From: Arthrobacter sp. CDRTa11
Lineage (GTDB): Bacteria; Actinomycetota; Actinomycetes; Actinomycetales; Micrococcaceae
Assembly: GCF_026427775.1 (NCBI RefSeq)
Contig: NZ_CP044532.1
Coordinates: 4,650,001 to 4,714,000, forward strand
Reading direction: 5' to 3'
DNA length: 64,000 nucleotides
Position numbers and translations under genes: made by a program. The notes below the pieces were generated by a model that worked only from the letters and a program-made list of their open reading frames with translations, was not told the origin of the DNA and did not search any database. Position 1 is the first letter of the stretch; each line of letters starts with the position of its first letter. Shown one piece after another: positions 27,630-44,649 of the stretch.

Positions 27630-29420
<1,791 letters not shown>

Positions 29421-29421
29421 C

Positions 29422-30621
29422 ATGCGGATCGTGATTGCACCGGACAAGTTCAAGGGATCACTCTCGGCACCGGACGTGTGCAGGCACCTGGAAAGGGGAC
29501 TGCAGCTGGCTTCTGGCGGGAACCTTGACGTCGTCGGCATTCCAGTGGCTGACGGCGGCGAGGGCACCCTCGACGCCGCCGTCGGCTCCGGCTTCACCCG
29601 CCGGATCGCCACTGTCAGCGGGCCCACCGGCCAAGTGATCGAGGCGGATTTCGCCGTCCGCGGCCACGAGGCGGTCATTGAGATGGCGGCTGCCTCGGGC
29701 CTGGCGCTCCTCCCCGCAGGGGTTCTGGTTGACGGACGGCCAGGCTCGACGGCGGCCACCACCGCCACCAGCCTGGGCACCGGGCAGCTGATCCGTGCCG
29801 CACTGGACGCCGGCTGCCGGCGCATCGTGTTGGGTGTTGGGGGCAGTGCGAATACCGACGGCGGCGCGGGGCTTCTGCAGGGGCTCGGCGCCAGGTTCCT
29901 GGACGCAACGAACAACGAACTCCCGCCGGGCGGCGCTGCGCTGGCCAACCTGCACAGCATCGACTTCACGCACTTTGAACCCCGCCTGGTGGACGCCCGC
30001 TTTGTGCTGGCGTCCGACGTCGACAATCCCCTGCTGGGCGCCCAGGGCGCCGCCGCCGTATTTGGGCCCCAAAAGGGCGCAACACCACAGGACGTCGAGC
30101 TCCTCGACGCCGCCCTGGCCAGGTTCGTCGAAGTCCTGGCCAGGGAAATCGGGATCCGCGCCATCAAAGCCGCGGAGGCCCCAGGCGCCGGGGCGGCAGG
30201 TGGCGTGGGCTTCGCTGCAATAGCGGCCCTGGCCGCAAGCCGCCGGCCGGGCATCGACGTCGTGCTTGAATTCACCCAACTGGCGCGGCGGATGGAGGGC
30301 GCGGATCTTGTCATCACCGGGGAAGGCAGCCTGGACGAACAAAGCCTGCTGGGCAAAACCCCGACGGGCGTGGCCAGGGCGGCCGCGGCAGCCGGCGTGC
30401 CCGTAATTGCCGTATGCGGCCGTACCACCCTTGACCGCGGACAGCTGGTGGAAGCCGGGTTCCAGGATGTTTACGCTTTGACTGGGCTTGAAAGCAATGT
30501 AGACAGGTGCATAGCAGAGGCGGGAAAGCTTCTGGAGCAGCTGGGCAAGCAGATCGGCGGACAGCTGGCGGCCAACAGGCTGCCACGGCCCGCTCGCAGT
30601 AAGGAGGACCTCCATGTCTGA
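29422..30621 (+). CDS. glxK: Glycerate kinase
   Basis: 399 residues. It starts with '[18 protein letters not shown]', the hallmark of the GarK/GlxK family, and has '[11 protein letters not shown]', '[21 protein letters not shown]' and '[21 protein letters not shown]'. It phosphorylates D-glycerate (to 2-phosphoglycerate in most members). ATG at 29422 lies one base after the gcl stop; the frame extends to 30621, overlapping allB by eight bases. A longer in-frame start inside gcl is rejected. Confidence 0.92.
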
Positions 30622-31957
30622 AGAGCGCTTTGACCTCGTCATCCGGGGCCAGCGGATCCTCACCACGGCCGGCATCGCGGCCCGGGAGGTGGGCGTCCGC
30701 GGCGGCAGGATCGTTGCTATCGAGCCGCTGGGCAACGGGCTGGACGGCACCGAGATCATCGAACTTGCCGACGACGAAACCCTGCTTCCGGGCCTGGTGG
30801 ACACCCACGTCCACGTGAACGAGCCCGGCCGCACCGAGTGGGAGGGCTTCGCGTCCGCCACCCGTGCCGCGGCAGCCGGCGGCGTCACCACCATCATCGA
30901 CATGCCGCTGAATTCCATCCCGCCCACCACCACGGTGGCAGGCCTCAAGCTCAAGCGCGAGGTCGCCGAGGACCAGGCCTTTGTGGACGTCGGGTTCTGG
31001 GGCGGTGCCATCCCGGGCAACAAGCCTGACCTCCGCCCCCTGCACGATGAGGGTGTGTTCGGCTTCAAATGCTTCCTGCTGCACTCCGGCGTGGACGAGT
31101 TCCCGCACCTGGACGCGGACGAGATGGAGGAGGACATGGCCGAGCTGAAGTCCTTCGATTCACTCATGATTGTCCACGCCGAGGATTCGCACGCCATCGA
31201 CCACGCACCCCACCCGGGCGGCGACCAGTACTCAACCTTCCTGGCCTCCCGTCCCCGCGGCGCGGAGAACAAGGCCATCGCCGAAGTCATTGAGCGGGCC
31301 CGCTGGACGGGTGCGCGGGCGCACATCCTGCACCTGTCGTCGTCGGACGCGCTGCCCATGATCGCCACCGCAAAGCGCGACGGCGTCCGCCTCACCGTTG
31401 AGACGTGCCCGCACTACCTCACTCTGGTGGCGGAGGAGATCCCCAACGGCGCCACCGCCTATAAGTGCTGCCCGCCCATCCGTGAGGCGTCCAACCGGGA
31501 GCTGCTGTGGCAGGGCCTGCAGGACGGGACAATCGACTGCATCGTCTCGGACCACTCCCCCTCCACGCTGGACTTAAAGGACCTGGAGAACGGTGACTTC
31601 GCCGTGGCCTGGGGCGGCGTTTCTTCGCTCCAGTTGGGCCTGTCGCTGGTCTGGACCGAGGCCCGGCACCGCGGCATTCCGCTGGAGCAGGTGGTCAGCT
31701 GGATGGCCGAGAAGCCGGCCGCCCTGGCCCGGCTTTCCACCAAGGGCCAGCTGGCGCTGGGCTACGACGCCGACTTTGCGGTCTTTGCGCCGGACGAGGC
31801 GTTCGTGGTGGACGCCTCCAAGCTCAAGCACAAAAACCCCATCACCCCGTACGACGGTAAAGCGCTCTCCGGTGTGGTCCGTCAGACGTTCCTGCGCGGG
31901 AACCGGGTGGACGGCAAAACCCCCACCGGCAAGCTCATCCGCCGCGGCGGGGTCTGA
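30614..31957 (+). CDS. allB: Allantoinase
   Basis: 447-residue cyclic amidohydrolase. '[23 protein letters not shown]' gives the first metal ligands, '[15 protein letters not shown]' has the carboxylated Lys, and '[11 protein letters not shown]', '[11 protein letters not shown]' and '[10 protein letters not shown]' give the His and Asp ligands. It opens allantoin to allantoate. Overlaps the glycerate kinase gene. No allantoicase or ureidoglycolate lyase is present nearby, so the steps from allantoate to glyoxylate lie elsewhere. Confidence 0.93.
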
Positions 31958-36470: not shown

Positions 36471-37586
36471 ATGCCTTACCTTCCCGAGACCCGCCGTGCC
36501 GTTGTGATTGAGGATGACCCGGACATCCGCGGGCTGCTGGTGCGGGTCCTGACCAAGCAGGGTTTCGAGGTCACCGAGGCGGCTGCGGGCTTGCCGGGCG
36601 TGGAGGAAGTCCGCAGAGCCAAGCCGGACCTAGTCACCCTGGATCTGAACCTGCCGGATCTTGACGGCCTTGAGGTCTGCAAGCTCCTTCGGGAATTTTC
36701 GGACGCCTTTATTGTGATGCTCACCGCCCGGACGGATGAACTGGACAAACTGACGGGGCTGGACAACGGTGCTGATGACTACATCAGCAAGCCGTTCAGC
36801 CCCCGGGAACTCCAGTCCCGGGTCAATGCGCTCTTCCGGCGCCGCCAGCCCACGGCGGTGGCGGACCCCGCCGCCCAGGATGAGCTGGCGCGGGCCACCG
36901 AGGTGCAGCTGAGCCTGCTGCCCAAGGAGGACGTCAGGGTGGACGGTTACGACCTCGCCGGGATGTTCCGCCCTTCCCGAAGCGTGGGCGGGGACTTCTA
37001 CGACTGGTACCGCACGCCTGATGGCCTGCACCTGACCTTCGCCGATGCCATGGGCAAGGGCATGGGAGCAGCCCTCATCGCTGCCACTGTGCGTGCCGTG
37101 ATGCGCTCCATGGGTCCTCTCACCAACCTGGACGAGGCCTTTACAGCCGCGAGCACTGCCATCGCCTCAGACCTCGATTCGTCCAGTTCCTTTGTGACCC
37201 TGTTCCATGCCCGCCTTGACGCCGTCTCCGGAACCGTCAGCTATGTCGACGCCGGCCATGGGCTTGCGCTGCACGTGGACGCCGGCGGGACGGCCCGCCG
37301 TCTTGCCTCCGGAGGCCCGCCGGTCGGGGCATGGGGCGGTTCAACCTGGCCGCAATCGGCACTGGTCCTGGCTCCGGGCGATTCCCTGGTGGTGGTGAGC
37401 GACGGCGTGCTGGATGTCTTTGATTCCGTGGAGGCGTTCACGGAAGCAGTGCTGCAGGCCACGCACGGCCAGGACTCCGCCGTCGCCGCCAGCGATGCCA
37501 TCCTGTCCCTGGCACCGGCGGAATCCGCAGACGATGACGTCACAGTGGTGGTGGTTCGGCGCCTTCCGGTGGCAGCCGGAGCGTGA
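36471..37586 (+). CDS. Response regulator with SpoIIE-type PP2C phosphatase domain (RsbU/RssB-like)
   Basis: 371 residues. Residues ~8-125 form a CheY receiver with acidic pair E14-D15-D16, phospho-Asp D58 ('LDLNLPDLDG'), Thr in 'MLTARTDE' and Lys in 'DDYISKPFSPRE'. Residues ~140-365 form a SpoIIE/RsbU PP2C phosphatase with metal ligands in 'SVGGDFYDW', 'FADAMGKGMGAAL', 'VVVSDGVLD' and 'ADDDVTVVVV'. It should dephosphorylate the STAS protein encoded at 39543 when its receiver is phosphorylated. TAATAGGAGC precedes the ATG. First gene of a four-gene operon; its stop overlaps the glycosyltransferase GTG. No histidine kinase is adjacent. Confidence 0.9.
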   Translation: MPYLPETRRAVVIEDDPDIRGLLVRVLTKQGFEVTEAAAGLPGVEEVRRAKPDLVTLDLNLPDLDGLEVCKLLREFSDAFIVMLTARTDELDKLTGLDNGADDYISKPFSPRELQSRVNALFRRRQPTAVADPAAQDELARATEVQLSLLPKEDVRVDGYDLAGMFRPSRSVGGDFYDWYRTPDGLHLTFADAMGKGMGAALIAATVRAVMRSMGPLTNLDEAFTAASTAIASDLDSSSSFVTLFHARLDAVSGTVSYVDAGHGLALHVDAGGTARRLASGGPPVGAWGGSTWPQSALVLAPGDSLVVVSDGVLDVFDSVEAFTEAVLQATHGQDSAVAASDAILSLAPAESADDDVTVVVVRRLPVAAGA

Positions 37587-39553
37587 CACGGTTCTGGACC
37601 CGCCTGATAGTAGTTCTGACGGTTGTCCTTGGCTTGAACTATGTGGCCTGGCGGTGGTCAGCCTCGCTGAACTGGGACGCGTGGTGGATCTCGGTTCCGC
37701 TGGTGATTGCAGAAACCTACAGCCTCATCGACGTCATGCTGTTTGGCATGACGGTGTGGAAACTGAAGCTGCGCAAGGGTGCTCCGGAGGCTCCCCGGGA
37801 TGCCACCGTGGACGTTTTCATCACCACCTACAACGAGCCGCTGGACATGGTGATGACCACGGCGCTGGCGGCCCAACGGATCCGCCACCCGCACAGCACC
37901 TGGATCCTGGACGACGGCTCGCGCGCGGAACTCAAAGCCCTCGCTGAGGAACACGGCCTGGGCTACGTCACGCGCAGCGAGGACTGGACCTCCAACTTTC
38001 CCCGGCACGCCAAGGCAGGCAACCTAAACAACGCGCTGATGCAGACGCACGGCGAATTCCTCCTGATCCTGGACGCGGACCAGATCCCCGAGCCGGACAT
38101 CCTGGAAAAAACCCTGGGCTACTTCAACAACCGCCGCGTGGCGCTGGTCCAGACCCCGCAGTACTTCAGCAACGTCCCTCCCTCAGACCCCTTGGGCAGC
38201 CAGGCTCCCCTGTTCTATGGCCCCATCCAGCAGGGCAAGGACGGCTGGAATGCGGCCTTCTTCTGTGGCTCCAACGCCATCCTGCGCCGTGAGGCCCTGA
38301 TGCAGCTGGGCCTGGTGGGCTATGTCAAGGAGACCGAAAAGAGCATCCGGCGGGCCTTGGCGGCGTCGCGGTCGGCCATCAGGCAGGCCAGGAAATCGGC
38401 GGACATGGAATCGCCGCTGGTGGCCCAGGTGCTGGACGAGGTCCAGGTGGCCACTCTGGAAGCCCAGCAGGAACTGGACAACGGGGCCCCGCTGGGCGAA
38501 ATCACGTACCGGGTCCGGCGCCGCGTGGACCAGGCCGTCCAGGCCCTCGTCATGGCTGACGTTTCGGCCCTCCAGGCGGATCTTGAGGAGATCGCCGCCA
38601 TGGAGCTCGCACATGTTGGCGAAGCCGGCGTACCGGTGGTGGCCGATGACGCCGTGAAGCGGATGGCAGCCCGCGACTGGTCTCCGCTGGGCGCACTGGA
38701 ATCCGTGCAGGCAGTGCTGGACGCGCTGTCCGTGGAACGGAATGACGAGGCGCAGCCCGTGATGCCGCTCGCCACCATTTCCGTCACCGAGGACATGGCC
38801 ACGGCCATGCGCATGCACTCGATGGGCTGGGAGAGTGTTTACCACCACGAGATCCTTGCCTACGGGCTGGCGCCGGAAGACCTCAAGACCATGCTGACCC
38901 AGCGGCTCCGCTGGGCACAGGGAACCATCCAGGTAATGCTGCGGGAAAACCCGTTGGTCCAGCGCGGCCTCAAGATTGGCCAGCGCCTGATGTACTTCGC
39001 CACCATGTGGACCTACCTCAGCGGATACGCGGCCATCATCTACTTCGCAGCCCCCATCATCTACCTCCTGGTGGGAACCCTGCCGGTAATCAGCCTGAGC
39101 ACGGACTTCTTTATCCGCTTCATCCCCTTCATGGTGGTGAACCAGCTGCTGTTTGCCGTTGCCGGCCGCGGAATCAGCACCTGGCGCGGCCAGCAGTACA
39201 GCCTGGCGCTGTTTCCCACCTGGATCAAGGCCTGCTCGACGGCGGCCCGGAATGTCTGGTTCGGACGTCCCCTGGGGTTCGCCGTCACGCCCAAGTCGCG
39301 CCAAAGCGGCGGTCCCTCCTGGAGCCTGATCCGGCCACAGATCGTGGTGTCCGCACTCCTGGCGGTGGCCGCCGTCGTCGGCCTGGTGCGGCTCGCCGCG
39401 GGACTGGCCGAGCCGCTAGGCACGCTGGTCAACGTTGCCTGGGTTATTTTTGACCTGGCGGTGATGAGCGTCCTGGTCCAGGCCGTTCGGTACAAGGGGT
39501 TTGAACCCGTTCCGCAAGCAGAGCCTGAAGAGAGGAAATCCGGTGGAGTTTAG
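37583..39553 (+). CDS. Membrane glycosyltransferase family 2 (cellulose-synthase-like) with large insertion
   Basis: 656 residues. Two N-terminal membrane helices, then a GT2 domain: 'VDVFITTYNEPLDMV', 'WILDDGS', DAD at 164-166, 'FFCGSNAILRREAL' (C228), TED at 402-404 and QRLRW at 440-444, followed by four to five membrane helices. The order is that of processive BcsA-like synthases of exopolysaccharide. Between GSN and TED the distance is ~170 residues instead of about 25, from a helical insertion rich in Ala/Gln/Glu with no obvious domain. GTGA overlap with the phosphatase gene; the STAS gene starts inside its 3' end. No PilZ domain; control by the partner switch is inferred from the operon. 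Product unknown. Confidence 0.88.
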   Translation: MTRFWTRLIVVLTVVLGLNYVAWRWSASLNWDAWWISVPLVIAETYSLIDVMLFGMTVWKLKLRKGAPEAPRDATVDVFITTYNEPLDMVMTTALAAQRIRHPHSTWILDDGSRAELKALAEEHGLGYVTRSEDWTSNFPRHAKAGNLNNALMQTHGEFLLILDADQIPEPDILEKTLGYFNNRRVALVQTPQYFSNVPPSDPLGSQAPLFYGPIQQGKDGWNAAFFCGSNAILRREALMQLGLVGYVKETEKSIRRALAASRSAIRQARKSADMESPLVAQVLDEVQVATLEAQQELDNGAPLGEITYRVRRRVDQAVQALVMADVSALQADLEEIAAMELAHVGEAGVPVVADDAVKRMAARDWSPLGALESVQAVLDALSVERNDEAQPVMPLATISVTEDMATAMRMHSMGWESVYHHEILAYGLAPEDLKTMLTQRLRWAQGTIQVMLRENPLVQRGLKIGQRLMYFATMWTYLSGYAAIIYFAAPIIYLLVGTLPVISLSTDFFIRFIPFMVVNQLLFAVAGRGISTWRGQQYSLALFPTWIKACSTAARNVWFGRPLGFAVTPKSRQSGGPSWSLIRPQIVVSALLAVAAVVGLVRLAAGLAEPLGTLVNVAWVIFDLAVMSVLVQAVRYKGFEPVPQAEPEERKSGGV

Positions 39554-39875
39554 CTACGAAATCAAGGACTCGTATGCGGAGGTGAAGGCCGACGGGCGGC
39601 TCAACATGGTGTCCGCGCCCAAGCTCCGCGAGTTTGTCACGGACGTCATCGCGGGCGGGTCCAACAGGATTGTTGTCAACCTGGAAAACACCGCCTTTAT
39701 GGATTCCTCCGGGCTGGGGGCCCTGATCGGCTGTCTCAAGGCAGCCCGCCAGGCGGGCGGGGACCTTCGGATCGCCGCTGTCCAGCCGCAGGTGAAGATG
39801 GTGCTTGAGCTGACCAGCATGGACCGGGTGCTTACCTCCTACACTTCCCCGGAGGAGGCGTTCGGCAATGACTGA
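39543..39875 (+). CDS. STAS-domain anti-sigma-factor antagonist
   Basis: 110 residues from the GTG at 39543, which is preceded by AGAGGAAA and overlaps the glycosyltransferase stop. The whole protein is one STAS domain: 'YAEVKADGRLNMVSAPKLREFV', then the phospho-serine loop 'FMDSSGLGALIG' (S55/S56), as in SpoIIAA and RsbV. In partner switching the kinase RsbW phosphorylates this Ser and a PP2C removes the phosphate. Here the PP2C and the RsbW-like protein flank it in one operon. Which target it releases is open: a sigma factor, or the glycosyltransferase itself. Confidence 0.9.
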   Translation: MEFSYEIKDSYAEVKADGRLNMVSAPKLREFVTDVIAGGSNRIVVNLENTAFMDSSGLGALIGCLKAARQAGGDLRIAAVQPQVKMVLELTSMDRVLTSYTSPEEAFGND

Positions 39876-40290
39876 AATCCTGGCCCACAGCAGCTTCCGC
39901 GGATTGGCCACTGGAGAGGCCATCGATTCGATCCATGATCACTTGGATGGGCTCTGGGCAGATGCTCCCTTCGTCCAGGACATGGACCAGATGACGTTCA
40001 CAACCGCCGTGATCGAGGCCGCCACCAACATCGTCCAGCACGCTGAACCGGCGAAGGAACTGGCGGTTGAGCTGGGGGTGGACATCAGCGTACAGGCGGC
40101 ACTCCTGCAGGCGCGGGTCAGCGCCTTCAACGCCAAACCGCCGTTCGGACCCATGGAACCGGGAGTGCCGGACGATGAATCGGAGTCCGGCCGCGGGCTC
40201 GCCCTGATCCAGGCACTGGTGACTACTGTGACGTTCGAGCGCCAGGACGGCACGAACACCTGGATCCTGTCCCGGTCGTCCCAAGGCTAA
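39868..40290 (+). CDS. RsbW-like ATP-binding protein (anti-sigma/serine kinase type)
   Basis: 140 residues of the GHKL/HATPase_c2 fold. N box 'AVIEAATNIVQHAEPAKEL' and G2-like 'SGRGLALIQAL' are present. The G1 box, usually DxGxxF(D)P, here reads 'AFNAKPPFGP': the Asp that holds adenine and the following Gly are replaced. ATP binding may thus be weak, or the protein may act as a binding switch only. Overlaps the STAS gene by eight bases. No sigma factor gene lies in the window to serve as partner. Confidence 0.85.
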   Translation: MTEILAHSSFRGLATGEAIDSIHDHLDGLWADAPFVQDMDQMTFTTAVIEAATNIVQHAEPAKELAVELGVDISVQAALLQARVSAFNAKPPFGPMEPGVPDDESESGRGLALIQALVTTVTFERQDGTNTWILSRSSQG

Positions 40291-40401: not shown

Positions 40402-40496
40402 GGTTTCCTTGCTGTAAACCTGGAAACCGTCGGATAACCGGCCCTCCGCATAGCCGTCACCATGGATGCCAGCACCGTCACATGAGGAACAGCAGC

Positions 40497-40994
40497 ATGA
40501 AGCTTGCCGAATTCAACAGCGTGGAACCCTCACGCGCCAGGGACGTCCTGAAGCCCTGCATCGACGTCGGGCGCTGGGTGGAGGCCGTCACGGCCGCACG
40601 TCCCTTTCCGTCCAAGGCCTCCCTCCTGGAGTTTGCTTCCCAGGCGGCTGAGCCGTTCACGCCGGCAGAGGTGGAAGCCGCCCTGGCCCACCACCCGCGG
40701 ATCGGCGACCGGCCCACCGCCAGCACTGCGGAAGCCTCCATGTCCCGTTCCGAACAGGCCGGAGTGGACCCGTCGGACTCCGGCGTTGCCGAAGCACTCG
40801 CCCGGGGCAATCGCGACTACGAGGAGAAGTTCGGCAGGGTCTTCCTGATCCGGGCCGCCGGAAGAACCGCCCCTGAAATCCTGGCGGCCCTCGAATCCCG
40901 CTTGTCCAACTCCCCCAGTGAAGAAGACACGATTGTGGCCCAGCAGCTGCGCGAAATAGCCCTGCTGCGGCTTGAAGGAGTGATCAGCGAATGA
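40497..40994 (+). CDS. uraD: 2-oxo-4-hydroxy-4-carboxy-5-ureidoimidazoline decarboxylase
   Basis: 165 residues of the OHCU decarboxylase family. The catalytic 'HHPRIGDRP' motif (His) and 'NRDYEEKFGRVFLIRAAGRT' segment are intact, and the length is normal. It performs the last step from urate to S-allantoin. ATG at 40497 has AGGAA upstream; an earlier ATG at 40482 lies in that site. Coupled by ATGA to the hydroxyisourate hydrolase gene. Urate oxidase is not in the window. Confidence 0.92.
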   Translation: MKLAEFNSVEPSRARDVLKPCIDVGRWVEAVTAARPFPSKASLLEFASQAAEPFTPAEVEAALAHHPRIGDRPTASTAEASMSRSEQAGVDPSDSGVAEALARGNRDYEEKFGRVFLIRAAGRTAPEILAALESRLSNSPSEEDTIVAQQLREIALLRLEGVISE

Positions 40995-41329
40995 ACCCGT
41001 CCCATGTCACCACCCATGTCCTAGATACCGGCGCCGGACGTCCGGCGGCGGGAGTCGCCGTCGTGCTTTACCAGCACGACGGCGGAGGCTGGCAGGAGCT
41101 GGCCCGTTCGGCAACTGATGCGGACGGCCGGGCGAAAGACCTGGGGCCAGAGTCGCTGGCAGCCGGGCGGTACCGCCTGAACTTTGCAACCGGCGACTAC
41201 TACGCCGGGCTAGGCACGGCTACGTTCTTCCCTGAGGTGGACCTGGTGTTCGAGGTGACCGGCGCCGAGCACTACCACGTGCCGCTGCTGCTGAGCCCGT
41301 TCGCCTACTCCACGTACCGCGGCAGCTAA
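40991..41329 (+). CDS. 5-hydroxyisourate hydrolase
   Basis: 112 residues, transthyretin-like. The N-terminal 'VTTHVLDTGAGRPAAGVAVVL' and the C-terminal signature 'LLLSPFAYSTYRGS' (YRGS ending) are diagnostic. It hydrolyses 5-hydroxyisourate to OHCU, the substrate of the uraD product encoded just upstream. Overlaps that gene by four bases. A long inverted repeat follows the stop. Confidence 0.95.
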   Translation: MNPSHVTTHVLDTGAGRPAAGVAVVLYQHDGGGWQELARSATDADGRAKDLGPESLAAGRYRLNFATGDYYAGLGTATFFPEVDLVFEVTGAEHYHVPLLLSPFAYSTYRGS

Positions 41330-41335
41330 CCCCCT

Positions 41336-41398
41336 GAGCTTTTGTCCAGATACGGCGGGTTGGAACGGCTTAAAGTCGCCAGATCCGGACAAAAACTC
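41336..41398. repeat. Long inverted repeat (GAGTTTTTGTCCA family) after the hydroxyisourate hydrolase gene
   Basis: GAGCTTTTGTCCAGATACGGCG (41336-41357) faces GAGTTTTTGTCCGGATCTGGCG read on the other strand (41377-41398): 18 of 22 positions pair by identity. The left arm shares GTCCAGATACGGCG with the palindrome at 27514. Likely terminator of the uraD unit. Confidence 0.8.
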
Positions 41399-41419
41399 CA
41401 GGGCAGTAGGCTTGATGGC

Positions 41420-41734
41420 ATGTCTTTTGAAGAAACCCCCGCTGAGCGCCGCGACGTAACCGTACGGCGGGCACCCAGATACGTACCCTTCCTGATTCTG
41501 GGCGCACTTATTGGTGTTGCCGCTGCGGCTGTGGTGGCGTACGCGCTGCCCGGCGACGCAAGCTTCGACAGGGGTTCGGTGTTCGGCTTCTTCCTGGTGA
41601 TGTTCGGGGCGTTCGGTGCGATCCTGGGTGCAGCAACCGCCCTGGTCCTGGACCGGCGGAGTGTCAAGCGCCAGCAACGCGCCGTTGTGGAGGCCGTTCC
41701 GGACTCGGAACCTGACGACGGCACACAGCCGTAA
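41420..41734 (+). CDS. Hypothetical two-helix membrane protein
   Basis: 104 residues with two membrane helices (YVPFLILGALIGVAAAAVVAY and FGFFLVMFGAFGAILGAATALVL) and a charged tail. The ATG at 41420 begins this sequence; the upstream frame is read-through over the inverted repeat. TAGGCT ends seven bases before the ATG and no ribosome site is visible, so the transcript may be leaderless. It lies 69 bases before purF. Function unknown. Confidence 0.7.
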   Translation: MSFEETPAERRDVTVRRAPRYVPFLILGALIGVAAAAVVAYALPGDASFDRGSVFGFFLVMFGAFGAILGAATALVLDRRSVKRQQRAVVEAVPDSEPDDGTQP

Positions 41735-41788
41735 CCGCAATCACACACAGTCACAAAGGACCGGGCGGAAAAGTCTTACCCCATATCG

Positions 41789-41797
41789 TGAGATAAT
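41789..41797 (+). promoter_or_regulatory. Extended -10 promoter of a leaderless purF transcript
   Basis: TG-A-GATAAT (41789-41797), an extended -10, ends exactly six bases before the purF GTG at 41804. No ribosome site lies between. Transcription from this promoter would begin on the start codon. Confidence 0.6.
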
Positions 41798-41803
41798 CGA
41801 CCA

Positions 41804-43486
41804 GTGGCACGCGGCGATGGAAAACTTTCTCATGATCTTCTCCCTGGCGAAAAAGGCCCTCAGGACGCTTGCGGCGTTTTTGGGGTCTGGGCACCAGGTG
41901 AAGAAGTAGCAAAACTCACCTACTACGGGCTGTATGCACTGCAGCACCGCGGTCAGGAGTCGGCTGGTATTGCCACCAGCGACGGCAAGCGGATCAACGT
42001 CTACAAGGACATGGGACTCGTTTCCCAGGTCTTCGACGAGACCACGCTGAACACCCTGACCGGGCACCTGGCGGTGGGACACTGCCGCTACTCCACCACC
42101 GGAGCCAGCCACTGGGCCAACGCCCAGCCCACGCTCGGCGCCACCAGCACCGGCACCGTGGCCCTGGCGCACAACGGCAACCTGACCAACACCGCCGAGC
42201 TCAACGCCATGATCATGGAGCGCAACGGCGGCCAGCTCAGCGGCGAAATGAAGCAGGGCAACACCTCAGACACCGCACTGGTCACGGCATTGCTGGAAGG
42301 CGAGGAGGGCAAGACCCTCGAACAGACCGCCATCGAGCTGCTTCCCAAGATCAAGGGCGGCTTCTGCTTCGTCTTTATGGACGAGGGCACCCTCTACGCT
42401 GCCCGCGACACTTATGGCATCCGCCCGCTGGTACTGGGCCGGCTGGAACGCGGCTGGGTGGTGGCCTCCGAGCAATCCGCGCTCGCCACCGTGGGCGCCA
42501 GCTTCATCCGTGAAATCGAACCCGGCGAATTCATCGCCATCGACGAGGACGGCGTGCGCTCCCAGCGCTTCGCGGAGCCGACGCCGGCGGGTTGCGTTTT
42601 CGAGTACGTTTACCTGGCCCGTCCGGACGCCGCCATCGCCGGCCGCTCTGTCTACGAGTCCCGCGTTGAGATGGGCCGCCAGCTGGCCCGCGAAAACACC
42701 CAGGTTGCGGACATCGTCATTCCCGTCCCGGAATCCGGCACGCCGGCCGCGGTGGGCTACGCCGAGGAATCCGGCATCCCGTTTGCGCACGGCTTCGTCA
42801 AGAACTCCTACGTGGGCCGCACCTTCATCCAGCCCTCCCAGACGCTCCGCCAGCTGGGCATCCGGCTCAAGCTGAACGCCCTGGAATCCGTCATCCGCGG
42901 CAAGCGTGTGGTGGTGGTGGACGACTCCATCGTCCGCGGCAACACGCAGCGGGCGATTGTCCGGATGCTCCGTGAAGCCGGTGCGGCAGCAGTCCACGTC
43001 AAGATCTCCTCCCCGCCGGTGCAGTGGCCCTGCTTCTACGGCATCGACTTCGCTTCCCGCGCCGAACTGATCGCCAACGGCGCCACCATCGAGGAAATCT
43101 CGCAGGCGATTGGCGCCGATTCCCTCGCCTATATCTCCGAAGACGGCATGATCGGCGCCACCCAGCAGCCGCGTGAACGCCTCTGCACCGCATGCTTCAC
43201 CGGCAAGTACCCCATTGAGCTCCCCGGCTCGGACAAACTGGGCAAGAACCTGCTGGAGCGCACAGACCTTGGCGGGCTCCCGCCGTCGCCCTCTGCCCTG
43301 CCCGGCGAAACAGCGGCCCTGCTGGTGCCCGCCGTCGGTGACGGCGAGGATCCGGCCAACAAGCGCGGCGCCACAGGCTGCGACCCCGGACCGGACTCCG
43401 AGTTCGAGAACCTGCTGACCGAGGCAGACCTTGTTCCAGACGTACACGTAGCCACCATCGGCGCTGACAAGAAAGAGTCACTATGA
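41804..43486 (+). CDS. purF: Amidophosphoribosyltransferase
   Basis: 560 residues. A short propeptide ends before the N-terminal nucleophile Cys23 in 'DACGVFGVWAPGEE', followed by the Ntn glutaminase domain (AVGHCRYSTTGASHWANAQP). The phosphoribosyl transferase part has the PRPP loop 'VVVVDDSIVRGNTQR'; the Cys residues of the family's [4Fe-4S] site are represented in 'ERLCTACFTGKYP'. It starts purine synthesis by making phosphoribosylamine from PRPP and glutamine. GTG start with leaderless promoter. Its last codons overlap purM by four bases. The C-terminal ~60 residues are a Pro/Asp-rich extension usual in this group. Confidence 0.96.
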   Translation: MARGDGKLSHDLLPGEKGPQDACGVFGVWAPGEEVAKLTYYGLYALQHRGQESAGIATSDGKRINVYKDMGLVSQVFDETTLNTLTGHLAVGHCRYSTTGASHWANAQPTLGATSTGTVALAHNGNLTNTAELNAMIMERNGGQLSGEMKQGNTSDTALVTALLEGEEGKTLEQTAIELLPKIKGGFCFVFMDEGTLYAARDTYGIRPLVLGRLERGWVVASEQSALATVGASFIREIEPGEFIAIDEDGVRSQRFAEPTPAGCVFEYVYLARPDAAIAGRSVYESRVEMGRQLARENTQVADIVIPVPESGTPAAVGYAEESGIPFAHGFVKNSYVGRTFIQPSQTLRQLGIRLKLNALESVIRGKRVVVVDDSIVRGNTQRAIVRMLREAGAAAVHVKISSPPVQWPCFYGIDFASRAELIANGATIEEISQAIGADSLAYISEDGMIGATQQPRERLCTACFTGKYPIELPGSDKLGKNLLERTDLGGLPPSPSALPGETAALLVPAVGDGEDPANKRGATGCDPGPDSEFENLLTEADLVPDVHVATIGADKKESL

Positions 43487-44649
43487 CTTCCGCAACCCCC
43501 GCCGCCGGCAACCTCTCCAACCCGGCCGGCGGCATCACTTATGCCTCCGCGGGCGTTGACGTTGAAGCCGGCGACCGCGCCGTTGAGCTGATGAAGGGCG
43601 CCGTCAAGGCAACCCACAACTCATCCGTGATTGGTGGCGTGGGCGGCTTCGCCGGACTGTACGACGTCTCCAGGCTGCTGACCTACAAGCGCCCGCTCCT
43701 GGCCACGTCCACCGACGGCGTGGGCACCAAGGTTGCCATTGCGCAGGCCATGGACATCCACGACACCATCGGGTTTGACCTGGTGGGCATGGTGGTGGAC
43801 GACATCGTGGTGGTTGGCGCCGAGCCGCTCTACATGACCGACTACATCGCCTGCGGCAAGGTGGTCCCGGAGCGCATCGCTGACATTGTCCGCGGCATCG
43901 CAGCGGCCTGCTCCGTTGCCGGTACCGCCCTGGTGGGCGGCGAGACCGCCGAGCACCCCGGCCTGCTGGGCGAGCACGAATACGACGTCGCGGGCGCCGC
44001 CACCGGCGTTGTCGAGGCTGATGCCCTGCTGGGCCCGGACCGTGTCCGCGCCGGCGACGTTGTGATCGGCATGGCGTCCTCCGGCCTGCACTCCAACGGC
44101 TACTCCCTGGTCCGCCGGGTCATCAACCACGCCGGCTGGGCCCTGGACCGCCAGGTTTCCGAGCTCGGCCGCACGCTGGGCGAAGAACTCCTGGAACCCA
44201 CCCGCGTTTACGCCGCCGACTGCCTTGACCTGGCCCGCACCTTCCCGGTAACTGGCGGCTCGGGCGCTGCCGTGCACGGCTTCAGCCACGTCACCGGCGG
44301 CGGCCTGGCAGCCAACCTGGCACGGGTGCTTCCGCAGGGCCTGGTGGCCACCGTTGACCGCGCCACGTGGGAGCTGCCGGCCATCTTCAAGCTGGTCTCT
44401 GAGCTGGGCAACGTCCCGCTGGCAGACCTGGAGCGCACCCTGAACCTAGGCGTCGGCATGGTGGCCATTGTGTCCCCGGAAGCTGCCGATGCCGCCGTAG
44501 CGCGCCTGAACGACCGCGGCCTGCCGTCCTGGATCATGGGCACGGTGACCGCGGATTCGGACTCCATCCTCAAGTCCGGCCCGGACTACATCCAAGGTGC
44601 CAAGGGAGTGGACGGCGGCGCTGTCCGCCTGGTCAACGCCTACGCTTAA
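43483..44649 (+). CDS. purM: Phosphoribosylformylglycinamidine cyclo-ligase
   Basis: 388 residues, ATP-dependent AIR synthetase. 'GGFAGLYDV', 'LLATSTDGVGTKVAIAQ', 'GFDLVGMVVDDIVVVGAEPLYMTDYIA' and 'GETAEHPGL' (ATP and substrate segments) are present, as is 'GLHSNGYSLVRRV'. It converts FGAM to AIR. Directly coupled to purF. A strong hairpin follows the stop. Confidence 0.96.
   Translation: MTSATPAAGNLSNPAGGITYASAGVDVEAGDRAVELMKGAVKATHNSSVIGGVGGFAGLYDVSRLLTYKRPLLATSTDGVGTKVAIAQAMDIHDTIGFDLVGMVVDDIVVVGAEPLYMTDYIACGKVVPERIADIVRGIAAACSVAGTALVGGETAEHPGLLGEHEYDVAGAATGVVEADALLGPDRVRAGDVVIGMASSGLHSNGYSLVRRVINHAGWALDRQVSELGRTLGEELLEPTRVYAADCLDLARTFPVTGGSGAAVHGFSHVTGGGLAANLARVLPQGLVATVDRATWELPAIFKLVSELGNVPLADLERTLNLGVGMVAIVSPEAADAAVARLNDRGLPSWIMGTVTADSDSILKSGPDYIQGAKGVDGGAVRLVNAYA

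Follow-up and report, generated by a model that had tools for sequence, protein, structure and literature searches.

The 64,000-nucleotide stretch of the Arthrobacter sp. CDRTa11 genome analysed here (NZ_CP044532.1, positions 4,650,001 to 4,714,000; the window) encodes, at 36471-40290 on the plus strand, a cassette of four genes, each overlapping the next: a receiver-SpoIIE phosphatase, a BcsA-like family 2 glycosyltransferase (GT2; below, the GT), a STAS protein, and an RsbW-like protein. Sequence comparison suggests, with a probability that we put at roughly 0.55, that the cassette is a partner switch with a polysaccharide synthase, not a sigma factor, as its output, probably through the STAS protein. 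The initial annotation had proposed that the switch controls the synthase itself or its export; this proposal gains part of its support from the wide conservation of the gene order, and direct control of the synthase is what we infer.

Domain scans recovered all four genes in the order and on the strand first proposed. The first (36471-37586) encodes a receiver-SpoIIE (PP2C-type) serine phosphatase of 371 residues (PF00072, E 9.4e-28; PF07228, E 2.6e-33) and the second (37583-39553) the BcsA-like membrane GT2 of 656 residues (PF03552 and PF00535). The third (39543-39875) has a GTG start and encodes an anti-sigma-factor-antagonist-like STAS protein of 110 residues (TIGR00377, E 1.8e-23; PF01740, E 2.1e-18, scanned with a longer TTG frame from 39501 as query), and the fourth (39868-40290) encodes an RsbW-like GHKL protein of 140 residues with an HATPase_c_2 domain (PF13581, E 1.3e-10). 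Successive genes overlap by 4, 11, and 8 bases, the first overlap being GTGA (37583-37586) and the last ATGACTGA (39868-39875). Elsewhere in the genome, a single contig of 5.16 Mb, PF07228 recurs once (a PPM-type phosphatase by eye) and PF01740 three times (SulP transporters by eye), and PF13581 has 13 matches, nearly all in frames of 400-700 residues; a short PF13581 open reading frame of 156 residues near genome position 4747445 resembles, by eye, the ATPase portion of a histidine kinase. The RsbW-like profile has the cassette gene as its single match. With so few further matches to PF07228, PF01740, and the RsbW-like profile, chance adjacency of the four genes is unlikely.

The grouping was followed through 80 named loci, the best of at least 582 confirmed with a GT alignment as query; counts among them lean toward close relatives and toward loci matching two short patterns. 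Within 2 kb of the GT, a STAS gene lies directly 3′ in 63 of the 80 and an RsbW-like gene lies downstream in 69. The full order of the window is found in 47, all of them in Actinobacteria: 46 have SpoIIE-GT-STAS-RsbW, and one has the same with a second SpoIIE gene downstream. The remaining loci comprise GT-RsbW (11), GT-STAS-RsbW (seven), GT-STAS-RsbW-SpoIIE (four), GT-STAS (four), the GT alone (four), SpoIIE-GT at contig ends (two; loci L048 and L103 end at the GT), and a SpoIIE-HATPase protein upstream of GT-STAS (one). Hosts include Kocuria, Gordonia, Rhodococcus, Mycolicibacterium, Nocardioides, Cellulomonas, Clavibacter, and Blastococcus. Partial forms reach metagenome-assembled genomes of Chloroflexi, Pseudomonadota, and Spirochaetes, with GT-STAS-RsbW in Roseiflexus (L110) and a member of the Pseudomonadota (L117), and GT-STAS in genomes named Spirochaetales (L122) and Spirochaetaceae (L124). 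These non-actinobacterial genomes hold partial forms; therefore, among the 80 loci, the full order is confined to Actinobacteria. A search for the four-gene order elsewhere had been proposed as a check, and the order proves to be conserved well beyond close relatives, the GTs of complete cassettes being as little as 43% identical to one another. In two loci where SpoIIE was not found (L036:8537-9163 and L040:5418-6128), a protein of 208-236 residues, STAS-like by eye, is encoded upstream of the GT and near a GAF-ANTAR-like protein (also by eye).

Closer to the window, where the nearest named relatives of the GT belong to Arthrobacter and Pseudarthrobacter, the GT subfamily is present at E 1e-40 in 42 of 99 genomes (the window's own and 98 relatives); these 42 are the window's own, 40 of the same genus, and one (G077) of the same order. 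STAS and RsbW-like genes lie 3′ of the GT in all 29 of the best-scoring other loci (L004-L032), and 28 of them have a SpoIIE match upstream, the exception being L027. Both this result and the GT-STAS adjacency in 63 of the 80 named loci argue for the synthase as output. When genomes were sampled evenly across the phylum, the subfamily appeared at E 1e-80 in two of 396, one of them the window's own; about three candidates were scored per listed genome, so that this sample may undercount. The cassette seems to be dispersed across the phylum and not common in it, and no GT match at E 1e-80 was found among 72,556 plasmid records.

The GT carries the D, DxD, TED, and QxxRW signature of BcsA/CelA (DDG 110-112, DAD 164-166, TED 402-404, and QRLRW 440-444, in residues). 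The NCBIfam CelA model (TIGR03030) matches it at E 6e-106 and 355 bits, under the 699-bit cut-off. The sequence FAVTPK (39278-39295, plus strand) fits the FxVTxK gating-loop motif described for cellulose synthases (PMC5567048), with F566, V568, T569, and K571 invariant in 13 sequences. A Pfam scan at E 0.1 found no PilZ domain in the protein, and the chain stops about 20 residues past the last predicted helix. Residues 246-395 (38318-38767, plus strand) form an insertion that is not in BcsA, with long helices predicted at 236-270, 278-299, and 304-346, followed by a poorly predicted stretch; the matches listed by a fold search are to the GT core, and no fold is assigned to the insertion. A GT without PilZ and with a predicted helical arm argues for the synthase as output.

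These features suggest a mechanism. A histidine kinase would phosphorylate the receiver, and the SpoIIE domain would then dephosphorylate the STAS protein. Free, unphosphorylated STAS may bind a cytosolic face of the GT, most probably the inserted helical arm, and release or stabilize the active synthase; the RsbW-like protein would oppose this by sequestering or phosphorylating STAS. Protein binding in this GT would thus do what the binding of cyclic di-GMP (c-di-GMP) to PilZ does in BcsA. It is possible, and more tentative, that such cassettes form a widespread class of partner switch in which a phosphorylatable STAS protein docks on the helical arm of a PilZ-less BcsA-like synthase, gates it, and replaces control by c-di-GMP.

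Subfamily members outside cassettes were also found. The window's genome encodes a second GT of the subfamily (genome positions 515747-517642; L033:5718-7661; 63% identity). A gene for a GH26 enzyme adjoins it, and the 14 kb examined showed no switch genes. The insertion was considered as a marker of switched GTs and discarded, since it also occurs in unswitched paralogues. No STAS domain, and thus no GT-STAS fusion protein, was found among the best 120 of 4026 and the best 120 of 5181 matches, and an apparent response regulator (RR)-GT fusion in L041 (a 1059-residue frame) was discarded, its upstream part being by eye antisense to another gene. Two cassette GT genes match in separate pieces (G025:C1:4021921-4023865 and G029:C1:3447879-3449842).

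Sixty genomes from the window's genus were examined for genome-level associations; the counts are not phylogenetically independent, and all of these associations are inflated by shared phylogeny. The RsbW-like protein is present in 39 of 40 GT-bearing genomes and in none of the 20 that are GT-free, which argues for the synthase as output; the single GT-bearing genome without it (G005) has GT-STAS only. Nearly all of the strong RsbW-like matches other than the window's own (40 of 41, E up to 2.4e-20) are found 357-441 bp 3′ of a GT match. With a strong match, of E below 1e-60, required for SigB-type presence, 31 genomes have both the RsbW-like protein and the sigma factor, nine the sigma factor only, eight the RsbW-like protein only, and 12 neither (p = 0.009). 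This count leaves out G052, with its fragmented SigB-type gene, and second matches that are weak, for example in G021 and G049 (G044 and G053 have an unlisted second weak match); including the broken gene of G052 gives 10 with the sigma factor only and 11 with neither (p = 0.019). At the genome level the RsbW-like protein thus matches the GT more closely than it matches SigB.

The same data bear on an ordinary sigma switch, in which the triad would regulate the SigB-type factor encoded at genome positions 591371-592360 and the GT would be a passenger or a member of the regulon. Several observations, here and in the following paragraph, weigh against the synthase as output. The window's genome has this one SigB-type factor and no match to the RsbW-like profile other than the cassette gene; within the genus, RsbW-like presence goes together with SigB (31 of 39 versus nine of 21), an association that counts as genuine evidence for the sigma switch; and among 38 genomes drawn from 40 named cassette loci, 10 score above the SigBFG cut-off and the majority of the others have a second, weaker sigma match. 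On the other hand, eight of the 39 RsbW-bearing genomes lack a SigB-type factor, and nine of the 40 sigma-bearing genomes lack the RsbW-like protein. A Sigma70_r3 search of the eight gave one match above the cut-off, at RpoD, with one more below the cut-off in G058; two of the eight (G041 and G058) are single-contig genomes. Full cassettes in Kocuria (L054) and Nesterenkonia (L092) likewise occur beside a single sigma match at the RpoD level, in genomes whose completeness is not stated. No cognate sigma-B-type factor is encoded with the module: SigB- or RpoD-like open reading frames are absent at E 1e-3 from the 80 named loci and from the 64-kb window. This absence, together with the eight RsbW-bearing genomes that lack SigB, argues for the synthase as output, and we consider the sigma switch improbable. 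The initial annotation had stated that no sigma factor is encoded, which holds for the window and fails for the genome; it had also named action on a distant sigma factor alone as an outcome that would overturn its proposal, and this has become less likely given cassettes in SigB-less genomes, although the window's genome does have such a factor.

The link between the four genes has exceptions. In 11 of the 80 loci, centred on Curtobacterium, the GT is followed by an RsbW-like gene without STAS, and in the genomes of the five of these loci that were searched the highest-scoring STAS match is at another site, next to a second RsbW-like gene. Two Arthrobacter genomes (L074 and L088) have a SpoIIE-STAS-RsbW triad with no GT in the 3.4 kb examined and a GT elsewhere. 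Of the four GT-STAS loci with no RsbW-like gene nearby (L086, L112, L120, and L124), L120 comes from a genome with a full GT-STAS-RsbW set elsewhere, L086 from one whose weak RsbW-like match sits in a large protein, and L124 consists of a contig of 3.5 kb. The insertion of the cassette GT is also seen in GTs that have no switch nearby. Arthrobacter sp. ISL-30 retains a GT remnant between SpoIIE and STAS. In G041 an unswitched GT is accompanied by a short RsbW-like match, a pattern suggestive of a decayed cassette. All genomes with these exceptional arrangements (the Curtobacterium group, L074, L088, ISL-30, and G041) still have a GT of the subfamily.

Which protein contacts the synthase was approached through conservation. 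Across 50 complete cassettes the median identity is 0.61 for the GT, 0.56 for STAS, 0.39 for SpoIIE, and 0.34 for the RsbW-like protein, a comparison made within cassettes alone. Conservation of STAS comes close to that of the GT, and that of the RsbW-like protein does not, the pattern to be expected if the GT is a further contact of STAS. The four proteins give Mantel correlations of 0.71-0.85, which reflect shared inheritance and nothing more. GT-STAS pairs without a nearby RsbW-like gene (four of the 80 loci) argue further for the synthase as output, the RsbW-like profile having no match anywhere in the genomes of L112 and G005 (GT-STAS at L041). From the conservation of STAS and from these pairs, we propose with moderate confidence that STAS rather than the RsbW-like protein is the output onto the GT.

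The RsbW-like protein might instead bind and inhibit the GT as an anti-sigma factor does a sigma factor, with unphosphorylated STAS drawing it away. This arrangement is nearest to canonical partner-switch logic and agrees with the RsbW-like gene within 2 kb 3′ of the GT in 69 loci and with the genome-level match in 39 of 40 genomes; the 11 loci without adjacent STAS favour the RsbW-like protein as the partner of the GT. The low conservation of the RsbW-like protein relative to the GT (0.34 versus 0.61) and the GT-STAS pairs that lack its gene speak against it, and we regard it as unlikely.

The switch proteins retain most of the residues expected of their families. The receiver has Asp58 (by position; 36642-36644, plus strand), and the metal-binding aspartates of the SpoIIE-type phosphatase are intact, as in known partner switches, with D175, D192, D260, D311, D355, and D356 kept in 68-70 of 69-72 aligned rows. 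The DSSG region of the STAS protein is kept, with the phosphorylatable serine of an RsbU/V/W-type module; the candidate phosphoacceptor is Ser55 or Ser56 (39705-39710, plus strand; S55 in 69 of 74 rows, S56 in 72, and the following G57 in all 74). In the RsbW-like protein, E50 and N54 of what we take to be the N-box and the GRG of the presumed G2 box (108-110) are conserved. The D-x-G of the presumed G1 box is replaced in the window's protein and close orthologues; it is present in 47 of 82 aligned rows, fragments counted, and several others keep the Asp and not the Gly. Since this motif is missing in the window's clade, kinase activity of the RsbW-like protein there is uncertain. Input domains of the phosphatase vary, with a receiver in the window, GAF in one SpoIIE protein near the GT of L113, and PAS plus GAF in L122.

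Neighbouring genes fit the synthesis, modification, and trimming of a beta-glycan. GH26 proteins adjoin subfamily GTs in L033, L035, L037, L039, and L042, and a neighbour cluster of GH26 and larger OpgC-type proteins occurs in 35 of the 80 named loci, where gene calls are approximate and some clustered frames may be read-through. Three cluster members were scanned: that of L120 is GH26, and in those of L087 and L093 OpgC was the sole domain recovered, so that their N-terminal halves are called GH26 from the clustering. The latter two (L087:8655-11231 and L093:8342-10855) are proteins of 837-858 residues encoded 3′ of the RsbW-like gene, with a C-terminal OpgC-type acyltransferase domain. In the Roseiflexus genome a BcsB-like gene (L110:3443-5908) lies directly upstream of the GT, with SpoIIE, STAS, and RsbW-like genes around. 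The switch could conceivably control export, modification, or trimming of the same polymer, for example through a GH26 or GH26-OpgC protein, and not the GT. Of the 74 loci whose GT is followed by a STAS or RsbW-like gene, 34 contain the cluster; the flanks examined of the other 40, where the GT is present, did not show it, and GH26 enzymes act outside the cell. We judge this explanation very improbable.

The cassette is flanked by purine-catabolism genes (29332-31957 and 40482-44649; by eye of the allantoinase, OHCU decarboxylase, and HIU hydrolase types), after which come purF and purM (by eye). Two genes of similar size recur 3′ of cassettes in L045, L047, L050, L109, and L118.

Partner switches acting on enzymes are already known; the BcsA-like synthase within the cassette appears to be new, and its direct control is a testable proposition. 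A search of the open-access literature, with subscription papers and preprints outside its coverage, listed no title or opening part of an abstract that reports a partner-switch operon with a BcsA-like synthase. PMC8457831 describes partner switches on diguanylate cyclases (SiaC on SiaD, HsbA on HsbD, and BgrV on BgrR), in which SiaC binds the helical stalk of SiaD and activates the enzyme. By analogy, SiaC, HsbA, BgrV, and SypA would be precedents that argue for the synthase as output. SiaABCD of Pseudomonas aeruginosa resembles the cassette in its PP2C phosphatase, kinase, and STAS-like protein, with biofilm control through a direct hit on an enzyme via its helical stalk (PMC8457831; PMC7647112); according to the same texts it differs in that its target is a diguanylate cyclase, SiaC is a DUF1987 protein, and c-di-GMP relays the signal, whereas here the synthase lies within the cassette.

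The SypE/SypA system of Vibrio fischeri likewise applies serine kinase and phosphatase activities to a STAS protein and controls polysaccharide-dependent biofilm below transcription (PMC10120452; PMC4517449), with SypA acting on a protein left undefined in the accessible text of PMC10120452. A review (PMC8256260) words the role of SypA as transcriptional, which lessens the value of this precedent for our reading. SypE unites kinase and phosphatase in one protein, unlike the separate genes of the window. The Spirochaetales locus L122 is SypE-like in this respect: a single protein with PAS, GAF, SpoIIE, and HATPase parts (L122:3752-5962) is encoded beside and upstream of GT-STAS, and recalls SypE.

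Among synthases, the window's GT differs from BcsA in lacking PilZ, in its insertion of about 150 residues, and in its CelA score under the cut-off. BgsA, the mixed-linkage glucan synthase of Sinorhizobium meliloti, is also a PilZ-less BcsA-like GT2; its description (PMC5567048) gives it a 139-residue C-terminal c-di-GMP-binding tail, unlike the roughly 20 residues that follow the last predicted helix here. The cyclase BgrR of the same species is under a partner switch (PMC8457831), and no text linking BgrR to BgsA was met in the portions of the sources available. A glycosyltransferase with an N-terminal STAS domain, all4160 of Anabaena, is mentioned in the review (PMC8256260).

The HmpU/V/W partner switch of Nostoc punctiforme belongs to the hormogonium motility and polysaccharide locus, again with a STAS output and, in the text available, an undefined effector and no synthase named as a target. 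The RsbU/RsbV/RsbW and SpoIIE/SpoIIAA/SpoIIAB switches draw on the same three protein families and share the DSSG region; unlike them, the cassette locus has no sigma gene, and some cassette genomes lack a SigB-type factor. The texts available give no target for several STAS outputs linked to polysaccharide and biofilm (SypA and HmpV), and direct control of the synthase, if true, would give such outputs a concrete kind of target and show a BcsA-like enzyme gated without c-di-GMP. Encoded with its synthase and kept together with it across distant taxa, the switch offers, beside these known systems, a simple system for synthase control by protein phosphorylation.

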